A stretch of 35,618 nucleotides of DNA, taken from the IMG/VR virus record IMGVR_UViG_3300032284_000735, positions 1 through 35,618 of that record; one strand, given 5' to 3'. The notes beneath the pieces are model-generated. The model saw nothing but the letters and a program-made list of their open reading frames with translations. It ran no database searches and was not told the origin of the DNA. Positions 13,512 through 29,068 of this stretch are shown piece by piece (the stretch's first letter is position 1; the number at the start of each line of letters is the position of its first letter). The DNA is from a virus. Both the position numbers and the translations under genes were made by a program.

Positions 13512-14042
13512 ATGGCACAAAAAATACTTTTAAAACGTTCCGGGGTATCGGGTTCAATACCTACAACCGCATCGATTGATTTAGGCGAATTAGCACTGAA
13601 TACCTATGACGGTAAAGCCTTTATGCACAAATCGGGTTCTACCGAATCAGTTGTAGAATTTGTAGTAGCAGGTTCAACCACATCGGGTTCAATTAATTTG
13701 ACAGGAGCAGTAACCGCATCGGCATTTAAAGGTTATGGTGGAGCATTGACCGGTGTAACCGCATCAATGAGACCTGATGATTATGATTTTAACTCTGACC
13801 CATTTGCGGGAAGTATTGGATATATTCAAGGTAGTGGTTCTCTTTATAAAGTAGCAACTACAACAAGTTCAATCGATTTTAGATATAACGATGTAACAAT
13901 CGCAACAATTACAGCAGCACAAGGATTTAGTGGTTCTCTTTATGGAATCGGTGATGTATTAGCATTTAGTGGTTCAGTAGCAAATAGATTATACAATTTA
14001 GAAATATCAGCATCATTTGGACCAGATGGTGGAGAAATCTAA
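13512..14042 (+). CDS. Short fiber protein with Mtd-N-like docking module
   Basis: 176 aa. The first ~50 residues (MAQKILLKRSGVSG, TTASIDLGELALNTYDGKAF, HKSGS) match the N-terminal docking module found on many phage fibers and resembling the major tropism determinant N-terminal domain. The same module begins the next gene. A short beta segment (TGAVTASAFKGYGGALTGV) and an unrecognised middle follow. It stops at SASFGPDGGEI, a phrase that in the fiber at 2185 (GFEGGEIDL) is followed by a further ~180-residue domain, so this may be a shortened fiber or a separate small connector. A terminator-like hairpin follows directly. No ATATTTATA motif is seen before it, only AATATATAAAG. Confidence 0.7.
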   Translation: MAQKILLKRSGVSGSIPTTASIDLGELALNTYDGKAFMHKSGSTESVVEFVVAGSTTSGSINLTGAVTASAFKGYGGALTGVTASMRPDDYDFNSDPFAGSIGYIQGSGSLYKVATTTSSIDFRYNDVTIATITAAQGFSGSLYGIGDVLAFSGSVANRLYNLEISASFGPDGGEI

Positions 14043-14158: not shown

Positions 14159-14947
14159 ATGGCACAAATTGTTCAACTCAAACGCTCTGCGTTATCGGGT
14201 AAGGTACCTGGTACGGGTTCCCTTAATTTAGGAGAATTAGCATTAAATACTTACGATGGTAAGATATTTTTTAGACGCTCGGGTTCAACAGATACAGTCC
14301 AAGAAGTAATAACAACAAATGTAATAAACACAGGTTCCGTAACTATTACAGGAACATTGACAGCAGGGTCAATTATAGGTTCAATATCGGCATCTAATGG
14401 TGTAGTTAGTGGTTCATCTCAAATAATTGGAATACTATCGTCATTAAACTCTTATACTGCTTCATACGCAACAACAGGTTCAAATCAATTCACCGATTCT
14501 CAAAATATTACCGGTTCTTTAAGAGCAACTTTAACTGGTTCATTTGGTTCATTAAATGTAAACGATACACTTAATATTAATCATGGTATTGCTACAATAA
14601 GTGGTTCATTGGGTATTACATCCGATTTAACAGTATTAGGACAAATCAATGCAAGACAATTTAATATTGGTATAATTTCATCATCTATATTGTATCAATC
14701 TGGTTCAAACAAATTTGGTGATACTTCGGATGATATACACCAATTTACAGGTTCGGTTCAAGTAACAGGAAGTGTAACCGCAACATCATTTGTGGGAAAT
14801 GGCAGTGGATTGACAGGAATGGTAGTAGATTTATCAACTGCACAATTAAATGACATAGATGGTAATACAATACCGGCTCGGTCATTTGCGGAATTATATT
14901 TAGCATGTTCATTGTTAGATATAGTAGATTTGGATTTTAACAATTAA
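14159..14947 (+). CDS. Tail fiber with Mtd-N-like docking module
   Basis: 262 aa. Residues 1-50 (MAQIVQLKRSALSGKVPGTG, LNLGELALNTYDGKIFFRRS) are the same docking module as the preceding gene. One VSGSSQ linker follows at about residue 83. Later comes a beta module (LYQSGSNKFGDTSDDIHQFT) that also occurs, diverged, in the fiber at 17442. It ends in an unrecognised acidic/hydrophobic tail (AELYLACSLLDIVDLDFNN). The gene lies after a terminator, so it probably starts a transcription unit. Likely a short fiber or a fiber segment. The docking-module assignment is firmer than the role. Confidence 0.75.
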   Translation: MAQIVQLKRSALSGKVPGTGSLNLGELALNTYDGKIFFRRSGSTDTVQEVITTNVINTGSVTITGTLTAGSIIGSISASNGVVSGSSQIIGILSSLNSYTASYATTGSNQFTDSQNITGSLRATLTGSFGSLNVNDTLNINHGIATISGSLGITSDLTVLGQINARQFNIGIISSSILYQSGSNKFGDTSDDIHQFTGSVQVTGSVTATSFVGNGSGLTGMVVDLSTAQLNDIDGNTIPARSFAELYLACSLLDIVDLDFNN

Positions 14948-20443: not shown

Positions 20444-22168
20444 ATGGCAAGAACAAATTTATCATTAGGAAATTTATATAGAGCTGTAAGTGGCTCAGTA
20501 AGAGTTGCACAAGCAGTTTCAATTGGTGGTTTAAATGGTGGTGGAAGTAATGTTTCCTTATTGGGATTTGCAACTGACGCAATAACAGTAAATACTCCAA
20601 CTTACACATATATTGTAGAATCAACAACTGAGAACGCAAACTTTTCGTTCAATAATACAGGTTCTCAATTTTATAATAAAGTACAACAACAAACCGCAAA
20701 CTATACTTGTTCTTTTAGCAATGGTAATTTTACGGTTTCATCAGCAACTCACGGAACAGGACCTGCAGTATTTCCTTTGAATGCAGCTGCTGTAACACAA
20801 ACAACATATTCTGAAGCACAATCCGTTTTAACAATGGGATATGCCGATGGATACAATACAAATGCAACCAATTATGGAGTTGCAACAACAAAAACATTAT
20901 ACGCAGTAGATGTTTACAACACAATTAACCAACCTGATTTCTGTTTATTATTTGGAACAAAAATTACAAAAGGAGATGGTAGTGTTGTTAATATTGAAGA
21001 TTTGAATATTGGTGATAGTATTAAAGCATGGGTTCCAACTGGTATTCCAGATGAAAGCCAACCAGAAGATGACCCCAATGTAGATTGGAGAATTTGGAAT
21101 GTTGATTCTATATCAGGTAATGATATGAATGTAAACGTAAAAGATATTGTATTCAATTTTGCAAGTGGATATTATTCTATAAACAACGGATTAATAAAAT
21201 CAACAGGTACTCACCCATTGTTTGTTTATGATAATGAAATGGGAAGATATCATTTTAAAAATGTTGAAAACTTATTACCTGGTGACAAATTGATTGCAGA
21301 TTCGGGAGTAGAAACTGAAATTGTAGACATTCAAACAATAACTGAAAATGTAGAGATTGTAACAATTAATGTAGAAACGGCTGACGTATTTTTAGCAAAT
21401 GGTGTGGTATCTCATAACAAAGGAACATCTACACAACCTTATATACCTTCTGTTGGATTGAGAATGTATTTAGATGAATATAAAACATCATCTTATAACT
21501 CAGGTTCAGCAGCTGCCGATTGGTTAGACCTTTCAGGTTGGAATACGGGTGTAAGACCAGCAGGTGTAACAAATGCAGCAGGTATTACAGGTGGTAACCC
21601 AACATCTACAAACGGTGCATCTAAAAAAGCATCTTATGTAACATTTAACGGAACTAACCAATTCTTCTATAAAGATACTACAACAAACATCAATGGTAAC
21701 TATTCACAATTCAATGTTAATACAGGTACAATTCATCTATGGGTAAGACCAACAGCAGCATCAATAGGTGCAGCATCTAGATTTATATTCGATTATGCCG
21801 GATATTTTGGTTTAGCAATTGAATCATCTGATAGTTCTACATATAATAGAGTTAAATTCTATGGTAGTTCATTGGGTAATTCGGCACAATTAACAACATC
21901 ATTGACAGTTGGTACAAACTATTTGATTTCAGCAACATTCCAACCAAGTGGAACGGTGACCGTTTATGTAGATGGAACTTCAATAGGAACATTTACATCA
22001 TCTGCATTTGCAGCACCATCTTCAACCAATTTCTTAACCATTGGATGTAATAGTGCAAGAACATCTTTTTGGAATGGTGGTATAGGACAAGTATTGTTTT
22101 ATAATACATTACAAAGTTCAACAGATGTAGCAAACGTATATAATCATTTCTCTACAACATTGAAATAA
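20444..22168 (+). CDS. Adhesin with Hint (intein-like) domain and LamG-like lectin domain
   Basis: 574 aa in three parts. Residues 1-166 are an unrecognised beta-rich N-terminal part that is probably virion-bound. Residues 167-325 form a Hedgehog/intein (Hint) module: Cys167 in CLLFGTKITKGDG, NIEDLNIGD, Thr256-His257-Pro258 in the block-B position, LLPGDKL, and the end VFLANGVVSHN with His324-Asn325. Residue 326 is Lys, not the Cys/Ser/Thr needed for true protein splicing, so it resembles bacterial intein-like domains that cleave rather than splice. No homing endonuclease fits in 159 residues. Residues about 337-574 look like a LamG/concanavalin-type lectin (TIHLWVRPTA, VTVYVDGTSIG, IGQVLFYNTLQSSTDVANVY). 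Likely a sugar-binding adhesin that may self-process. Confidence 0.8.
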   Translation: MARTNLSLGNLYRAVSGSVRVAQAVSIGGLNGGGSNVSLLGFATDAITVNTPTYTYIVESTTENANFSFNNTGSQFYNKVQQQTANYTCSFSNGNFTVSSATHGTGPAVFPLNAAAVTQTTYSEAQSVLTMGYADGYNTNATNYGVATTKTLYAVDVYNTINQPDFCLLFGTKITKGDGSVVNIEDLNIGDSIKAWVPTGIPDESQPEDDPNVDWRIWNVDSISGNDMNVNVKDIVFNFASGYYSINNGLIKSTGTHPLFVYDNEMGRYHFKNVENLLPGDKLIADSGVETEIVDIQTITENVEIVTINVETADVFLANGVVSHNKGTSTQPYIPSVGLRMYLDEYKTSSYNSGSAAADWLDLSGWNTGVRPAGVTNAAGITGGNPTSTNGASKKASYVTFNGTNQFFYKDTTTNINGNYSQFNVNTGTIHLWVRPTAASIGAASRFIFDYAGYFGLAIESSDSSTYNRVKFYGSSLGNSAQLTTSLTVGTNYLISATFQPSGTVTVYVDGTSIGTFTSSAFAAPSSTNFLTIGCNSARTSFWNGGIGQVLFYNTLQSSTDVANVYNHFSTTLK

Positions 22169-22239: not shown

Positions 22240-24489
22240 ATGGCAGACAAAATAGTATCACCAGGTGTATTTACAAGAGAAAATGACCTATCTTTTTTAC
22301 AACAAGGTGTAGCAAATATCGGAGCAGCATTCATAGGCCCTTTTTTAGAAGGCCCATTGGTTCCAACAATCGTTAATTCACAAGCTGAATTTCAAACTTT
22401 ATTTGGAATGGCTGATGGAACATATTATACTCCGTTAGCAGTACAAAATTATTTAAGAGAAGCAGGAACTGCAACAATTTGTAGAGTAGCAGGTGTAGGT
22501 GGATATACCGAAACAGCACCTTTATTATTAACAGCAACTTCAGGTTCTGTTTCAGCAAGTTTAGGTATTTTATTTAATACATTAACAAATGCAAACGCAG
22601 GTTTTGCAGGAACAACAGTATCTGATAAAGATGGTTTTGGTGATTTCTTATTAACAGGTTCAACATTAACACTTACTGCATCGTTATACGCTTCAACAGG
22701 AAGTAATATAGAGGCAGTATTTGGAACATCTCCACTTGGTACTAAAAATGCATATTCTTATGGATTTTTTAAAAATGCTAATATCAATCTTAATGATTCT
22801 CATACATCTGCAAGTGTAACTGTATTAGGGCCTCAATTATTTACATTTGATGCACAAGAAGCAGCTACTCCATATATACAATCACAATTAATCGGAGGTA
22901 GTAGAACTAATCTATTTCAAATCGAAACAATTTCAGTAGGTAATCCAACAAATACTAAAGTAAAAATTGGAATTACAAATATTAAACCAGCAGGTAGTGT
23001 AAACGGAACCGATTATGGTACATTTACAGTAATTGTAAGAGATTTTAATGATACCGATAAAAAGAAGATAGTATTAGAAACATACGCAAATGTAAATTTA
23101 GACCCTAACTCTCCAAACTTTATTAGTAGAGTAATTGGTGATAGAACTTTATATATTGACAATAGTGGTAAAATAACTGAAAGTGGAGATTGGGTAAACA
23201 ATTCAAAATATATTAGAATCATAAATCTAAATACGGCATCACCTGTACAGGCAGTACCATTTGGACATGATAAATATACATTACCTGTTTCAGCATCAGC
23301 TGCAGTTGGTTCATTGATACCATCTGTAACTTTCTCAACAGGTTCAGTTGCACAATCTGGTTCAACATTATACGCAGGTATTGATTTAGATAACAACACC
23401 GATAATACAATTTATTTAAAACCAACTCCATTATACGCAGGTGTAGGTTCAAATTCTGTATTTGGTTTAGATACAACTTCTCAAAATTCATTAGCAGTAG
23501 GTGATACAAGAGCACAATTTACTATCGCTTTCCAAGGTGGATTTGATGGTATGAATCCAGCAACTGTAATTAAATCAGGCGCAGATATCATAGCAGGTAA
23601 CACACAAGGATTTAATTTAAGTAACGCTGCATCATCAGGTTCAGTAGCATATATGAAAATGATTAACGCTTTATCTAATACAGATGAGTGGGATATCAAT
23701 ATGATTGTAGCACCGGGTGTTATTCAAAGTCAACACTCTTACATTGCAAACGCATTAGTAGATTTAGCAGAACAAAGAAATGACGCGTTCTTATTATTAG
23801 ATAGTACAGTAGCAGGAGATACAATTGCAAACGCAGTAACTCAAGCTGGTAATTTAGATACTAACTACGCAGCATCTTACTATCCTTGGATTAAAACAAT
23901 TGATATAAACACAAACAAATTAATCACAGTTCCACCATCAGTATTACTTCCAGGTGTATTCGCAGCAAATGACGCAGTAGCGGCAGAGTGGTTCGCACCA
24001 GCAGGTTTGAATAGAGGTGGTTTAACAGGAGCAGTTAGTGTATTGAATAGATTAACTCAGTCTGAAAAAGATACTCTATATGAAGGAAAGGTAAACCCAA
24101 TCGTTCAGTTCCCAGGAACAGGTATCGTAGTATTCGGACAAAAAACTTTACAAGATAAACCATCTGCATTAGATAGAATCAATGTAAGAAGATTATTGTT
24201 AACAGTTAGAAAATACATTGCATCTACTTCAAGATACTTAGTATTTGAACAAAATACTGCAGAAACAAGAAACACATTCTTAAACATAGTTAACCCTTAT
24301 TTAGAGAATATCCAACAAAGACAAGGTTTGTATACTTTTAGAGTAGTAATGGATAACTCAAACAATACTCCAGATGTAATTGATAGAAACATCCTAAAAG
24401 GTGCTATCTACTTACAACCGACTAAGACGGCTGAATTCATTCAAATTGATTTCAACATCTTACCAACGGGAGCAACTTTTAACGGATAA
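22240..24489 (+). CDS. Tail sheath protein (T4 gp18-like)
   Basis: 749 aa, somewhat longer than the 659 aa of T4 gp18. The N-terminus is typical of contractile sheaths (VSPGVFTRENDLSF, GAAFIGPFLEGPLVPTIV, AEFQTLFG, YLREAGTATICRVAGVGGY). The C-terminal third also fits (RINVRRLLLTVRKYIASTSR, FEQNTAETRN, MDNSNNTPDVIDRNILKG, AEFIQIDFNILPTGATF). The extra length probably lies in the variable middle domain (about residues 90-400). It forms the contractile outer tail tube. The tube gene follows after 46 bp, the usual order. This is one of the surest calls in the window. Confidence 0.95.
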   Translation: MADKIVSPGVFTRENDLSFLQQGVANIGAAFIGPFLEGPLVPTIVNSQAEFQTLFGMADGTYYTPLAVQNYLREAGTATICRVAGVGGYTETAPLLLTATSGSVSASLGILFNTLTNANAGFAGTTVSDKDGFGDFLLTGSTLTLTASLYASTGSNIEAVFGTSPLGTKNAYSYGFFKNANINLNDSHTSASVTVLGPQLFTFDAQEAATPYIQSQLIGGSRTNLFQIETISVGNPTNTKVKIGITNIKPAGSVNGTDYGTFTVIVRDFNDTDKKKIVLETYANVNLDPNSPNFISRVIGDRTLYIDNSGKITESGDWVNNSKYIRIINLNTASPVQAVPFGHDKYTLPVSASAAVGSLIPSVTFSTGSVAQSGSTLYAGIDLDNNTDNTIYLKPTPLYAGVGSNSVFGLDTTSQNSLAVGDTRAQFTIAFQGGFDGMNPATVIKSGADIIAGNTQGFNLSNAASSGSVAYMKMINALSNTDEWDINMIVAPGVIQSQHSYIANALVDLAEQRNDAFLLLDSTVAGDTIANAVTQAGNLDTNYAASYYPWIKTIDINTNKLITVPPSVLLPGVFAANDAVAAEWFAPAGLNRGGLTGAVSVLNRLTQSEKDTLYEGKVNPIVQFPGTGIVVFGQKTLQDKPSALDRINVRRLLLTVRKYIASTSRYLVFEQNTAETRNTFLNIVNPYLENIQQRQGLYTFRVVMDNSNNTPDVIDRNILKGAIYLQPTKTAEFIQIDFNILPTGATFNG

Positions 24490-24535: not shown

Positions 24536-25033
24536 ATGCCAGATATATTAGAATATGACAAGATGTTCACCAAGAATTGGGAACCAAAATTACAGAATAG
24601 ATTTATTATGGGTTTAGAGAACGCAGGTATCGAATCGTATATCTGTAAAACGGCTCAAAGACCAAAAATGACTTCTGAAGTTGTTGAATTAGACCACATC
24701 AACATCAAAAGAAAGATTAAAGGTAAAACTAACTGGGAAGATTTAGAAGTGACATTGTATGACCCCATTGTTCCATCAGGAGCACAACAGGTAATGGATT
24801 GGGTAAGATTATCACATGAGTCAATCACAGGTAGAGATGGATATTCGGCATTCTATAAAAAAGATGTAAACTTTTGGGCTTTAGGACCAGTAGGTGATAA
24901 AGTAGAAAAGTGGACTCTAAAAGGTGCATGGATTTCTTCGGCAGATTTTGGTGAAATGGATTGGTCTAACACAACTGACCCAGTTATGATTACATTAACT
25001 TTGACTTACGATTACGCTATTTTAGAATACTAA
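24536..25033 (+). CDS. Tail tube protein (T4 gp19-like)
   Basis: 165 aa, close to the 163 aa of T4 gp19. Typical features are MFTKNWEPKLQNRFIM near the start, INIKRKIKGKTNWEDLEVTL in the middle and ITLTLTYDYAIL at the end. It forms the inner tail tube through which DNA passes. It follows the sheath gene and ends before a terminator-like hairpin, which fits high expression of this short unit. Start context is AAAGAAAG-ATG, a weak Shine-Dalgarno. Confidence 0.92.
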   Translation: MPDILEYDKMFTKNWEPKLQNRFIMGLENAGIESYICKTAQRPKMTSEVVELDHINIKRKIKGKTNWEDLEVTLYDPIVPSGAQQVMDWVRLSHESITGRDGYSAFYKKDVNFWALGPVGDKVEKWTLKGAWISSADFGEMDWSNTTDPVMITLTLTYDYAILEY

Positions 25034-25055
25034 TCTAAATAAAATTATAAAAAAG

Positions 25056-25090
25056 AAGGGGATGCAGAAATGCTATCCCCTTTTTATTTT
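25056..25090 (+). terminator. Rho-independent terminator after tail tube gene
   Basis: AAGGGGATGC (25056-25065) pairs with GCTATCCCCTT (25072-25082) with one bulged T and a 6-base loop, followed by TTTTTATTTTTTT. It lies 23 bp after the tube stop codon. Confidence 0.8.
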
Positions 25091-25135
25091 TTTAAAAAGT
25101 GTATATATATTATTAAACACTAAGTTATATTATTT

Positions 25136-25948
25136 ATGGAACAAAACATTGAACAACAAGTTACAAGAGGAATTGGAACACAACAAGACCAATCATTGCG
25201 AAATTTCCCATTCCCTACGGAAATTATTTCATTACCATCAAAAGGATTAATATATCCAGAAGGTAATCCATTAGCAAAAGGAGAAATTACAATTAAATTA
25301 ATGACCGCAAAAGAAGAAGATATTTTAACTTCTCCAAACCTTATTAAAAAGGGAATTCAATTGGATAAGATGTTAGAATCAATTGTAGTAGAACCAGGAG
25401 TAAACATAAACGATTTATCAGTAGGTGACAAAAACGCAATTTTAGTTAGTACTAGATTATTAGCATTTGGTGCAGAATATACAATTAGTGTAATAGATAA
25501 AGTAACAGGAGAAGAAAGTGAAGTTACAATTAATTTAGCTGAAATTAAAGTTAAAGAAATAGACGAAACTTTATTAAATAGAAAAAATGAATATGATTAT
25601 ATTTTACCTATTACTAAAACTCCAATCAAATTTAAAATACTAACTCACGGTGATGAATTAGCAATTAATAAAGACATCGAAGCAAGTGAGAAATTTTCAA
25701 AACAAAGTAACGAAATTACAACAAGATATAGAAAAATTATTGTAGAAATCGATGGTAATAGAGATTTAGGATTTATTAGTAGTTTTGTTTCAAATAGATT
25801 ATTAGCAGGTGATAGTAAAGGTTTAAGAAAATATATTAAGAGTATAACTCCTGATTTAGATTTAACATACGAACATACACATTCAGACGGCGAAACGGAG
25901 GCGTTAAGAATCCCATTCGGGTTTAACTTTTTTTACCCTACCGACTAA
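25136..25948 (+). CDS. T4 gp26-like baseplate/tail-assembly chaperone-like protein
   Basis: 270 aa. LPSKGLIYPEGNPLAKGEI, KLMTAKEEDILTSPNLIKKG and LDKMLESIVV match the 'T4 bacteriophage base plate protein' family (PF12322 by memory; T4 gp26 is 208 aa). Position between tube and tape measure is where tail assembly chaperones sit in other long-tailed phages. The gene ends IPFGFNFFYPTD just after a run of seven T. A short ORF in the +1 frame overlaps its end, so a frameshifted longer form is possible. No strong Shine-Dalgarno is present. The start is taken at the first ATG, 54 bp after the terminator stem and 45 bp after its T-run. Confidence 0.8.
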   Translation: MEQNIEQQVTRGIGTQQDQSLRNFPFPTEIISLPSKGLIYPEGNPLAKGEITIKLMTAKEEDILTSPNLIKKGIQLDKMLESIVVEPGVNINDLSVGDKNAILVSTRLLAFGAEYTISVIDKVTGEESEVTINLAEIKVKEIDETLLNRKNEYDYILPITKTPIKFKILTHGDELAINKDIEASEKFSKQSNEITTRYRKIIVEIDGNRDLGFISSFVSNRLLAGDSKGLRKYIKSITPDLDLTYEHTHSDGETEALRIPFGFNFFYPTD

Positions 25949-25982
25949 TTACGGAGTAGTTTTACATCAGAAAATATTTCAA

Positions 25983-26150
25983 ATGGTTTACTTTGCCAAT
26001 GGTGGATTTAATTGGCATGATGTCTATTTTATGCCCGTTCGTTTAAGAGAATTTTATTATAGAGAGTTATTAAAAGCAAAAGAAGAAGAAACATCTCAAA
26101 TGCAGAAGGCTTCAAAATCCAATTCATCGTCTAAAACAAAAAGAAAGTAA
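25983..26150 (+). CDS. Small +1-frame companion of gp26-like gene; possible frameshift extension
   Basis: As a free-standing ORF it codes 55 aa (starts MVYFANGGFNWHDVYFMPVR, then LREFYYRELLKAKEEE and a Lys/Ser tail). The same frame is open upstream to 25908, overlapping the end of the gp26-like gene, and would add YGVVLHQKIFQ before the Met. Short proteins with 'MPVxLRxFYY' are familiar to me after gp26-like genes in marine myophages. Start choice is unsure: ATG 25983 has no clear Shine-Dalgarno, and translation by a +1 (or -2) shift at the T7 run 25928-25934 is an alternative. Role: probably tail assembly. Confidence 0.6.
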   Translation: MVYFANGGFNWHDVYFMPVRLREFYYRELLKAKEEETSQMQKASKSNSSSKTKRK

Positions 26151-26158
26151 TATTTATA
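26149..26158 (+). promoter_or_regulatory. ATATTTATA motif, copy 10
   Basis: AATATTTATA overlaps the stop codon of the small +1-frame ORF and lies 16 bp before the start at 26175. Confidence 0.4.
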
Positions 26159-26174
26159 TATAAATTGTAAACTC

Positions 26175-26423
26175 ATGCAAAAAAGAAGATTGGTTGAAGT
26201 AAATATGTTTGATAAATTATTTGATTTATTTATAAATGCAAAATCAAAAAAAAGGGAACATGAGTTTATTCAAAAAATGAAAAAAAATGACCCAGAATTG
26301 GGTAAATTATATTCAGATTGGAATGATAAAATGGATACTGCATTAAATTCAATGAAATCAATTTTACAAAGTAAAGGATTAGATTCATCTAAAATAGATA
26401 AAGTTCTTAATAAAAGATACTAA
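26175..26423 (+). CDS. Small basic helical protein before tape measure
   Basis: 82 aa, Lys-rich and predicted by eye to be all helical (FDKLFDLFINAKSKK, NDKMDTALNSMKSILQSKG). Its stop overlaps the start of the tape measure gene (TAATG), so the two are likely translationally coupled. An internal start at 26205 (MFDKLFDLF) is possible and would remove ten basic residues. Not recognised as a named family. Position suggests a tail assembly or tape-measure-associated role. Confidence 0.6.
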   Translation: MQKRRLVEVNMFDKLFDLFINAKSKKREHEFIQKMKKNDPELGKLYSDWNDKMDTALNSMKSILQSKGLDSSKIDKVLNKRY

Positions 26424-29068
26424 TGGCAAAATCAGATTTTGGTAATAAACAAGAATTGCAGGAATATCTTGCAGGCCTTAAACAAGTTGATGCACAATAT
26501 AAAATATTGAATGCAGAAGCTAAAAAATTTAGAGATATTCCTGGTGGTGCTAAAAATCAAGTTAAACAACAATTAAGAGATTTACAAAGCCAATACGATA
26601 CGCATAAAGAAATTCTTGCATCAATTAAACTTGCAACAAAGGAATTGGCCGATTTTGAAAAAACACAACAGAAATTAGTCAAAACTACATCAAAAGTAAC
26701 CGATGAGTTAAAAAAACAAACCGAATCAATAGGAGAACAAGAAAGACGCATTAACGATTTAGCAGGCGATTTTAATGAAATTGATGGTTTACAAAATAGT
26801 ATTACCTCAAATTATGGTAAACAATATGGTGAAGTAAAAGCAATTCAAAAGAAAATAGATGGTACAAAGGAATTGATATCAGGAATAAGTGAATTAATAA
26901 AACAAGATAGTAAGGTCTATGGTGACCAATTAGATAAAATATTAGATATAGCGGAACAATATAAAGGAATGCCTCAAACATTTGCAACATTATCAAAAGA
27001 AAGAAAATTAGGATTGATATCGGAAAAACAAATGAGTCAACAATTGAAACGACATCAAGATGAATTTGATGAAATGGTATCTAAATTACAACTAACAAAT
27101 GCAGAAACTGAAAAATTGGTTGAATTATTTAAACAGTTAAATGTAGAAAACGCAGCTTTTAATAAACCAATAGCTCAAAAAAGTGAATTAAAAAGTGGTG
27201 CAAATGCACTGATTACACAATCTCCATTGGGAAATGCACCAATAGTCGGTTCATCAATAGCAAAAACATCTGAAACTATTTTTTCGGAAGATAAAGTTAT
27301 GGCTGCAAGTTTGATTGGATTAGGATTTTTAGCAGCTAAAGCAACAGCGACATTGGCAGCAATTAGAACAACTTCACCTGGGGGTGATAAAGGTGATGTA
27401 ATGGAAACGTATGTTGGTGTAGAAAGGTCATATGATGCATTAATAAAAAATATAGATTTAGAAATTGAAGCGAGAGAAAAAATATTAGCATTACAAAGTG
27501 AATTTGTTCAAAGAGATGCGTTGTTTGATTTTAGTACACAACTTAAACAAATGGGTAATGAGTTTAATCAAATATCAAAAATTTCTTTATTTGGAGGTGA
27601 TTTGGGTAAAATGCCATATCTAACTGACCAAATGCAATTGGCCGGAGTTGGTGTTGAATCCGTAGTAAGTGCAATACATGATTTATCAAAAGATTCAAAT
27701 CTAGGAATTTTTCCTCAATTAGCAGCAAATGCCGCTGTATTTGCTAAAAAATTAGGAATTAGTACAAGTGAATTAAGTTCACAAATGGGATTATACAGAC
27801 GATTAAATAAAACGGGAGGACAACAAGCATATGGTGGTGTAACAAATACATTATCATCTACTGGAGGAATTAATCCTGTGGATGTATCAATGGAAATGGC
27901 AAATGCATCCAAAATGGCAATGACTTATAACATAAGAAGTTATGAAGCATTGGCAAAGCAAGTAATGGCAGCTAAACAATTGGGAGTTTCTTGGTCACAA
28001 ATTGCAGAAGATGGTCGAAATATGGTTTTAAATTATAAAGATACGATTAAGGGTGAAATGGAACTATCCGCAATGCTTGGTGAAAGAGTCGATTTATCGG
28101 AAGTAATGTCATTAATCAATTCAAACCAAGTAGTCGCTGCACAAAAAGCATTTAATGCAACAGGTTTGGCAGAAAAAGCTAGAGGACAGGGATTAATTGC
28201 ACAACAAAAATTACAAAGTATTGTTGGTGAGAATATATATGCAGGAGCTTTTGCCGCACCATTACAGACAGGACAATCTGCAAATATAAAATCAAATGCT
28301 GATTTTTTAGCTGCAACCCAAATGACAAATGCAAATTTAAAAATAACAGGAGCAACCATCGATGCATCACAATCTATTATTAAATTGCAAGCCGAAGATT
28401 TACAAAGAGGATTAAATACCTTAATTGGTGCAGACAAAATAGCTGCAGAATTACAATTAACAAAAACTGGTGAAGAATTAAATAAATTTATGGCAGTAAG
28501 TATGCATGAACTTACCGATGTAATAAAACATCCCTTAAATTCAATTGACGCAATATTGGGGTTTACTGGTGGTTTGGCGGGTAGTGATAGATATGCACAA
28601 ACAAATAGGGATTATATTGCAAACTCTAGAGCATATAGTAATGGAATTGGATTAGCAGCTGATGAATCGGGTACAAAATCTCAAAAAATATTTGATGCTA
28701 ATGGAAAATTAATAAATAGTTCAATAAATGTAAATAAAACACCATCTGTTGGACTATCTACCACTGGAAAAGGAATTGATTATTTGTCTAAAGTACCCAA
28801 TCAACAAGAACAAGTGATTGAAGCTTCTAAAATACAACAACAACAATTAGAAAATTTAAATAGTCATACAGAAACAAGTATTGAATTATTAAAAAGTTTA
28901 AGAGATTTGACAGCAATAATGTTAGACCCAGATAGAAAGAAAGATTTTAATGTTCAACTTAATATGGATGGTAAACAAATTAAAAATGTTCTTATCAGAA
29001 ATAACCAACGAGATTTAGGAACAACAAGAGATGGTTTAACATTCTCAACACAAGGTGCAAAATCATAA
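26423..29068 (+). CDS. Tail tape measure protein
   Basis: 881 aa. The N-terminal ~250 residues are charged coiled coil (LKQQLRDLQSQYD-type heptads). There is one hydrophobic stretch at about residues 292-315 (AASLIGLGFLAAKATATLAA). The C-terminal half contains a segment common in marine-phage tape measures (GEMELSAMLGERVDLSEVMS, AQKAFNATGLAEKARGQG) and ends in a helical, then basic tail. Such proteins set tail length and help DNA entry. It follows tube and chaperone-like genes and precedes baseplate genes, as expected. Its length would suggest a tail of roughly 130 nm by the common 1.5 angstrom per residue rule, an inference only. Confidence 0.8.
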   Translation: MAKSDFGNKQELQEYLAGLKQVDAQYKILNAEAKKFRDIPGGAKNQVKQQLRDLQSQYDTHKEILASIKLATKELADFEKTQQKLVKTTSKVTDELKKQTESIGEQERRINDLAGDFNEIDGLQNSITSNYGKQYGEVKAIQKKIDGTKELISGISELIKQDSKVYGDQLDKILDIAEQYKGMPQTFATLSKERKLGLISEKQMSQQLKRHQDEFDEMVSKLQLTNAETEKLVELFKQLNVENAAFNKPIAQKSELKSGANALITQSPLGNAPIVGSSIAKTSETIFSEDKVMAASLIGLGFLAAKATATLAAIRTTSPGGDKGDVMETYVGVERSYDALIKNIDLEIEAREKILALQSEFVQRDALFDFSTQLKQMGNEFNQISKISLFGGDLGKMPYLTDQMQLAGVGVESVVSAIHDLSKDSNLGIFPQLAANAAVFAKKLGISTSELSSQMGLYRRLNKTGGQQAYGGVTNTLSSTGGINPVDVSMEMANASKMAMTYNIRSYEALAKQVMAAKQLGVSWSQIAEDGRNMVLNYKDTIKGEMELSAMLGERVDLSEVMSLINSNQVVAAQKAFNATGLAEKARGQGLIAQQKLQSIVGENIYAGAFAAPLQTGQSANIKSNADFLAATQMTNANLKITGATIDASQSIIKLQAEDLQRGLNTLIGADKIAAELQLTKTGEELNKFMAVSMHELTDVIKHPLNSIDAILGFTGGLAGSDRYAQTNRDYIANSRAYSNGIGLAADESGTKSQKIFDANGKLINSSINVNKTPSVGLSTTGKGIDYLSKVPNQQEQVIEASKIQQQQLENLNSHTETSIELLKSLRDLTAIMLDPDRKKDFNVQLNMDGKQIKNVLIRNNQRDLGTTRDGLTFSTQGAKS

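Follow-up and report, generated by a model that had tools for sequence, protein, structure and literature searches.

The window, by which we mean the whole 35,618-base stretch analysed here (IMG/VR virus record IMGVR_UViG_3300032284_000735), carries a contractile-tail module in which a gp26-like open reading frame (ORF) overlaps a small ORF in another frame. The question that this locus raises is whether the small ORF is a gene of its own or the C-terminal extension of the gp26-like protein, reached by a programmed frameshift in the slot of the tail assembly chaperone (TAC). The genes lie in the order of sheath, tube, gp26, tail (the small ORF in question), a further small ORF and a tape-measure-like gene (Table 1). 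The last assignment is by position only: a Pfam scan of the product gave no match above the cut-off, and the gene in this slot is annotated as tape measure in the phages immuto and LIS04. The order of tube, gp26, tail and tape measure is also found in immuto, SP-15 and LIS04. The layout is that of lambda G/GT, namely a short ORF with an extension in another frame, located between the tube gene and the tape-measure-like gene. A DNA search of a phage collection with positions 25000-27000 gave no match.

Table 1. Positions in the window of the genes and sequence elements at the gp26 locus
Feature	Position	Strand	Basis
Tail sheath protein	22240..24489	+	PF04984 1.5e-16; phrog_23 1.3e-68
Tail tube protein	24536..25033	+	phrog_4542 2.8e-28
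gp26-like ORF, predicted short tail assembly chaperone (TAC-N), 270 aa, frame 0	25136..25948	+	PF12322, phrog_150, N-terminal model near HK97 TAC
GGG, conserved G-rich element 5' of the slip site, possible stimulator	25919..25921	+	Codon counts in cluster representatives
TTT TTT T, putative slip site (+1, UUU_U)	25928..25934	+	Register in the 25136-25948 frame, homologue junctions
Frame-0 stop TAA, end of the short form	25946..25948	+	ORF list
+1-frame tail, 71 aa after the shift, predicted C-terminal extension of the long form (TAC-NC)	25935..26150	+	Homologue frames; cyanophage gp51 tail profile
Annotation-style ATG of the tail	25983	+	Tail codon 16, counted from 0
Inferred frameshift product, 337 aa	25136..26150	+	AlphaFold2 pLDDT 88.8, pTM 0.73
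Small ORF between the tail and the tape-measure-like gene	26175..26423	+	ORF list, PHROGs scan
Tape-measure-like gene, 881 aa	26423..29068	+	Position only

The first-pass annotation had called the upstream ORF gp26-like, and this label is correct: the ORF scores 29.7 bits with PF12322 (6.4e-7), above the gathering score of 24.5, and also matches phrog_150, "baseplate hub", at 2.4e-9. The run of seven T (T7 below) that the annotation had pointed out is present and is read as TTT TTT T(AC) in the gp26 frame; the distance from this run to the stop is 11 nt and not 12 bp as claimed there. In the +1 frame, a TAA stop at 25905-25907 is followed by an open stretch that runs from 25908 to the next stop at 26148-26150 and encodes the segment MPVRLREFYY, both as the annotation had described.

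Homologous loci were collected in two steps. A tblastn search in annotated phages gave eight records and two IMG/VR scans gave at least 80 loci each, partly shared; together with the window, this first set contained 164 records with 118 distinct junctions. The tail ORF was found in 157 of the 164 records, and it was in the +1 frame in all 157. The canonical -1 pattern (X XXY YYZ with a -1 extension) was therefore observed neither in the window nor in these records. Conservation of the T-run across homologous loci, which had been proposed as a check, was borne out by the presence of exactly T7, in the register TTT TTT T, in 114 of the 118 distinct junctions. The residues preceding Met 25983, proposed for the same purpose, are likewise conserved, as (T/G)LP.N(Y/H)S..LH..IF.M. 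The proposal of a programmed frameshift in the chaperone slot is thus strongly supported by the conserved T7, the conserved frame and the conserved tail residues.

Further scans and six named phages enlarged the set to 362 gp26 records, of which 358 reached the gp26 stop; the other four were left out of the census. Among the 277 distinct junctions of this wider set, the tail is in the +1 frame in 270 and in another frame in three, and gave no match at E 1e-3 in four. Exactly T7 together with a +1 tail is present in 216 of the 277. The T7/+1 arrangement is real and far above chance.

The seven remaining junctions were inspected by eye or individually. Those with no tail match are L005, L359, L360 and L361. 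L005 (RM378) has T7 and an open +1 frame; in the other three the site is T TTT TTY and it is the -1 frame that is open. Those with the tail in another frame are L004, which is described below, and L346 and L351. These two are counter-examples: the downstream ORF has its own ATG after the stop, the -1 frame is closed before the FF motif and T7 is absent, with L351 still carrying CTT T. This pattern, which had been named as the one speaking against a frameshift, occurs in just two of the 277 junctions, both distant. It should be mentioned that in RM378, a Rhodothermus phage (L005:1998-2877), the +1 frame leads into an annotated downstream ORF, and the tube and sheath genes lie downstream of gp26 and not upstream.

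The slip site could be placed on the motif F[F/L][Y/W/F][P/F] in 266 of the 270 +1 junctions; the four not placed are L170, in which T7 lies farther from its stop, L356, L357 and L358. The placed sites are TTTTTTT (216), TTTCTTT (31), TTCTTTT (14) and TTTCTAT (5). One TTTTTTT site lies inside a run of eight T (L168), and the others are exactly seven. At all 266 sites, a single P-site tRNA could re-pair one base downstream, on UUU_Y or CUU_U. Since codon usage alone would permit such re-pairing at approximately 96% of sites, the stronger signal is in the second codon, which ends in T in 261 of the 266 sites (TTT 230, CTT 31) and is never TTC. At the FF sites, TTC as second codon is found in 0 of 230 against approximately 19% expected, and TTTTTT in 216 of 230 against approximately 65% expected, both without correction for shared descent. 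The codon statistics were drawn from T7 junctions only, all non-T7 junctions being left out; Phe is encoded by TTT in 827 of 1026 other gp26 codons (0.806; 108 cluster representatives). The site, its frame, its conservation and the homologies are features of the sequences themselves.

The individual sites differ in which codon could slip. With TTTCTAT the first codon alone would permit the slip, and with TTCTTTT the second alone; the slip codon may therefore differ between clades. The FF sites of three Firmicute phages, LIS04 (TTT TTT A), GXN1 (TTC TTT C) and SP-15 (TTT TTT C), offer UUU_Y at one of the two FF codons. According to a passage in a 2016 review (PMC5009743), UUU_Y is especially prone to +1 shifting, and RF2 sites use CUU_U or, more rarely, UUU_U (PMC5009743).

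The 50 placed sites without T7 decide between the +1 shift and two other ways of reaching the same frame. In the geometry given by the first-pass annotation as "+1/-2", a ribosome might instead move back by two bases with UUU in its P site, and this is geometrically possible at the 216 TTTTTTT sites. It is impossible at the 50 sites of the types TTTCTTT, TTCTTTT and TTTCTAT, and therefore only the +1 part of that geometry is retained. Alternatively, the polymerase might slip on T7 and give mRNA with one U less or two more; a homopolymer is present at 216 of the 266 placed sites and has exactly seven T in all but L168. The 50 sites contain no run above four T, and they keep the same frame and the same tail. 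The family is therefore explained neither by a -2 shift, which seems very unlikely, nor by slippage during transcription, to which we give a slightly smaller chance still. Homopolymers are error-prone in sequencing, and the two frames might in principle result from an error of sequencing or assembly in a gene that is truly in one frame. The same frame relation is seen in 270 distinct junctions, some of them at sites without a homopolymer, and in isolates, namely the Flavobacterium phage immuto (L001, TTTCTTT), the Microcystis phage Mel-JY01 (L002, T7) and RM378 (T7). An error of this kind has a practically negligible probability and was rejected.

Coding signal runs through the gp26 stop. In 152 clusters at 90% gp26 identity, made of T7 members only, the +1 frame is free of stops over the first 48 nt after T7 in 152 of 152; the third frame is closed in 91 clusters, and the stop of gp26 itself closes the gp26 frame in every cluster. 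From this stop to the Met codon, the +1 frame gave a dN/dS of 0.29 (91 sequences that share the spacing of the window), against 0.80 and 2.15 in the other two readings (47 and 35 stop-free sequences, respectively). Over all 16 codons of the same 91 sequences, the +1 value was 0.62, because the first five codons code in two frames. For all 152 clusters pN/pS was 0.59; synonymous sites are saturated there, and therefore no dN/dS is given. Within the dual-coding stretch, the third base of the CTN Leu codon, which is synonymous in the +1 frame only, is among the most variable columns (G 38, A 32, T 19 and C 2 of 91), whereas 89 of the 91 sequences have T at the position of the Pro codon that wobbles in frame 0.

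These data bear on the view that the small ORF is expressed as a gene of its own, through reinitiation or weak initiation at ATG 25983 after the gp26 stop, and that the T-run encodes Phe-Phe and nothing more. Start codons were counted up to eight codons before the conserved Pro. An ATG that would allow a separate small protein is present in 74 of the 152 clusters, and in 55 the sole ATG before the tail core sits at the place equivalent to 25983; moreover, the distant L346 and L351 do have a separate ORF. In 17 clusters there is only GTG or TTG before the core. In 61, however, there is no ATG, GTG or TTG at all between the slip site and the core. Purifying selection upstream of Met, the frame that is open back to the slip site in every cluster and the codon bias at the slip site also argue against a separate gene. 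The small ORF indeed has no clear ribosome binding site, as had been stated, yet this is uninformative: a Shine-Dalgarno-like word of even four bases was found at four of 21 inspected window starts, 25983 included, and therefore its lack at this ATG says little and does not exclude initiation there. Overall, expression as a separate gene seems quite unlikely.

Thus, programmed +1 frameshifting very probably yields both gp26 (270 aa) and the gp26-tail fusion (337 aa), as TAC-N and TAC-NC in the manner of lambda G/GT. What we infer here is the shift itself, how efficient it is and that the two products act as chaperones. Most ribosomes would read gp26 through to its stop and produce TAC-N. In a minority, tRNA-Phe in the P site would slip one base forward on UUU_U at UUU_UUU_U into the +1 frame, and these ribosomes would produce TAC-NC, which consists of gp26 and a helical tail (...NFF-TLPTNYGVVLHQ...). 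If the two products act as lambda gpG and gpGT do, gp26 alone might coat the tape measure, and the tail in the fusion might recruit tail-tube subunits.

Two elements near the site were considered as candidate stimulators of the +1 shift. Upstream, Gly is encoded at -9 to -7 in 82 representatives, 48 of which use GGG; at other positions GGG accounts for 76 of 1396 Gly codons (Fisher p 2.6e-34, shared descent uncorrected). A run of at least three G within 15 nt upstream is found in 59% of 108 representatives and in 4.4% of control windows. This G-rich element 5' of the slip site is a possible stimulator. The +1 site of RF2 also has a G-rich element upstream; the spacing of the G-run in the present family is mostly unlike that of RF2. 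Directly downstream, a 6-bp hairpin whose loop contains the stop region could form at least five of its six pairs in 15 of 108 representatives, and two of the pairs show GC/CG exchanges. For the 75 members in which GG follows T7, the count is 15, whereas 1000 shuffles of the arms gave 3.5 on average and never more than 9. RNAalifold predicted no pair for 28 diverse sequences, and the downstream fold of the window itself is weak (-3.0 kcal/mol); therefore the hairpin would at most be a feature of one clade.

Two points go beyond the first-pass annotation: the protein family connects this locus with T4 gp51, and some relatives probably use a -1 shift. T4 gp26 and gp51 both belong to PF12322 (8.8e-64 and 3.9e-52). 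In seven T4-type phages, gp51 consists of a gp26-like domain and a tail, and gp26 stops where the tail begins. T4 gp26 (208 aa) and gp51 (249 aa, with a tail of about 45 aa) therefore constitute a short and a long form, as predicted for the window; in T4 these are two separate genes with no frameshift, whereas the window has one gene and a predicted frameshift.

A third arrangement is seen in cyanophages. In S-PM2, gp26 is followed immediately by a "gp51" of 57 codons, and in S-PM2 and P-HM1 this tail-only ORF directly after gp26 is homologous to the window tail. The frame is different: the cyanophage tail follows T TTT TTC in the -1 frame, and the window tail is in the +1 frame. Among 80 cyanophage-type loci with 56 distinct junctions, T TTT TTC lies at FF and the tail is open in the -1 frame in 56 of 56, and because of this the annotated cyanophage gp51 (S-PM2, L370:472-1364; L371-L450) probably represents the C-terminal portion of a protein made by frameshifting. 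Cyanophage gp51 is described as lacking the first ~200 aa in a passage of PMC3037559. In a separate scan of cyanophage-type loci, ATG was absent from the first 10 tail codons in 20 of 57 distinct sites, and ATG, GTG and TTG were all absent in 13 of 57; in the other 37 an ATG is present, so that a separate start is possible in those. By eye, P-HM1, pf16, ACP17, VH7D, OLIVR6, PA5oct, RAS14 and Atu_ph07 have the -1 pattern of the cyanophages, and Atu_ph07 also has an ATG overlapping the gp26 stop. The huge uncultured phage LR756511 (L004:2745-3048) has T TTT TTC at FF with the -1 frame open through a long linker to the tail, and is probably a -1 member. In the cyanophage-like set, Vibrio phage D506 (L456) lacks a standard heptamer, and an ATG overlaps its gp26 stop. 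In Stenotrophomonas phage IME-SM1 (L454:1171-2013), the annotated gp26 is long and ends without the FF motif in its frame; a tail-like stretch lies in another frame, and either the gene model or a frameshift site is in question.

Profile comparison related the cyanophage tail to the T4 gp51 tail (E 8.5e-13) and the window tail to the cyanophage gp51 tail (E 2.5e-7). The direct comparison of the window tail with the T4 gp51 tail was weak (E 0.024; reversed controls, E 0.32 and 0.38). At the level of profiles, the link of the window tail to T4 gp51 runs through the cyanophages. A PHROGs scan of the tails of 26 members gave no convincing family: at most two matched any one family, with a best E of 0.0026.

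The structure models are consistent with a chaperone of the TAC type. AlphaFold2 predicted the fused window product with a helical tail, with the scores given in Table 1, and S-PM2 gp26 with a pLDDT of 86.9 and a pTM of 0.80. Among predicted viral structures, the fused model matched proteins of the gp26 type, for example the SP-15 baseplate hub subunit (E 7.1e-17) and a protein of ACP17 (E 2.1e-7). In VIA-align, the N-terminal model of the window protein had the HK97 TAC (2ob9) at the top of 995 chains, with a Z of 5.2, the next being 3.2 (78 aligned residues, rmsd 3.4). The S-PM2 gp26 model had the same chain at the top of 714, with a Z of 6.9 (84 aligned, rmsd 4.0), followed by 3fgx (6.4), 3klu (6.4) and 5ir0 (4.0) and then by 2.8; we take 3fgx and 3klu to be TAC-like prophage proteins. 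Both TAC Z-scores are below 8, which on the scale of this tool possibly reflects only a common arrangement. The N-terminal domain of gp26 nevertheless likely adopts the TAC fold, because of the gap in Z to unrelated chains and the agreement of two models of distant sequences. Foldseek against the PDB gave no hit below E 0.64 for the window model or below E 0.93 for the S-PM2 model. Sequence searches of the PDB gave a best E of 0.17 with the gp26 profile and no match up to E 1 with T4 gp51.

Frameshifted tail assembly chaperones are also known in P2 and Mu, and the shift in Mu is of the -2 type. As in the window, lambda gpG and gpGT are a short and a frameshift-extended protein encoded upstream of the tape measure. 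Chaperones of the lambda type shift by -1 (or -2), whereas the shift predicted for the window is +1, at UUU_UUU_U, in the protein family PF12322 of T4 gp26. A passage of the 2016 review describes the TAC frameshift as widely conserved "except T4" (PMC5009743), and another describes a +1 shift as very likely for the TAC of the haloarchaeal myovirus HSTV-2 (PMC5009743). The window and this archaeal virus would, by that description, share a +1 shift for a tail chaperone. RF2 (prfB) is described there as having the same kind of P-site slip, on CUU_U (PMC5009743), and CTT T is present at 31 of the 266 placed sites; the stop codon in the A site of RF2 has no counterpart at the window slip site.

According to more recent papers, some T4-like phages have a short gene and a longer fusion gene (PMC10885494, citing Vladimirov, Gautam and Davidson, Virology 2022), and T4-like TAC-N genes carry poly-T -1 signals (PMC12846349). 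As these papers report it, the T4-like chaperones, the link to T4 and the -1 type are already published and are not new here. Among the open-access papers listed, as judged from titles and the beginnings of abstracts, none reports a +1 shift in gp26-like genes. What seems new is the +1 version at UUU_UUU_U in the PF12322 family, which looks little described, together with a direction of shifting that differs from one homologous gene to another.

On balance, we favor the interpretation that phage lineages differ in the direction of the frameshift by which they express the T4 gp26/gp51 family, and that this direction is evolutionarily switchable at one site. The +1 shift at UUU_Y would belong to phages of the Flavobacterium type, the Microcystis, Rhodothermus and Bacillus SP-15-type phages, and the -1 shift at U_UUU_UUY to cyanophages, several proteobacterial phages and at least one huge uncultured phage (L004). 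If this is the case, the T4 "exception" of separate short and long genes would be the end point of losing the frameshift. With a frameshift at this locus, tail-only ORFs annotated as separate "hypothetical" or "gp51" genes would be the C-terminal parts of frameshift products. Hundreds of genomes would supply natural variants of the +1 slip site (in UUU_U, CUU_U and UUU_C contexts), and the two directions, +1 and -1, could be compared cleanly between homologous genes. In addition, the window is a case of +1 frameshifting, as predicted here, in a phage whose genes are mostly without Shine-Dalgarno motifs.

Some other features were noticed. At 20444-22168, the window encodes a protein of 574 aa that carries a Laminin_G_3 domain at its C-terminus (6.8e-14) and gives weak matches of the intein/Hint type that stay below the cut-off (0.0007). 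The adjoining ORFs at 13512-14042 and 14159-14947 both match the tail-fibre N-terminal family phrog_17885 and are possibly a duplication. Phage-like gp26 loci were also found in contigs binned as Woesearchaeota (L164), Halobacteriovorax (L172) and Methylococcaceae (L174), which are possibly mis-binned phage contigs.
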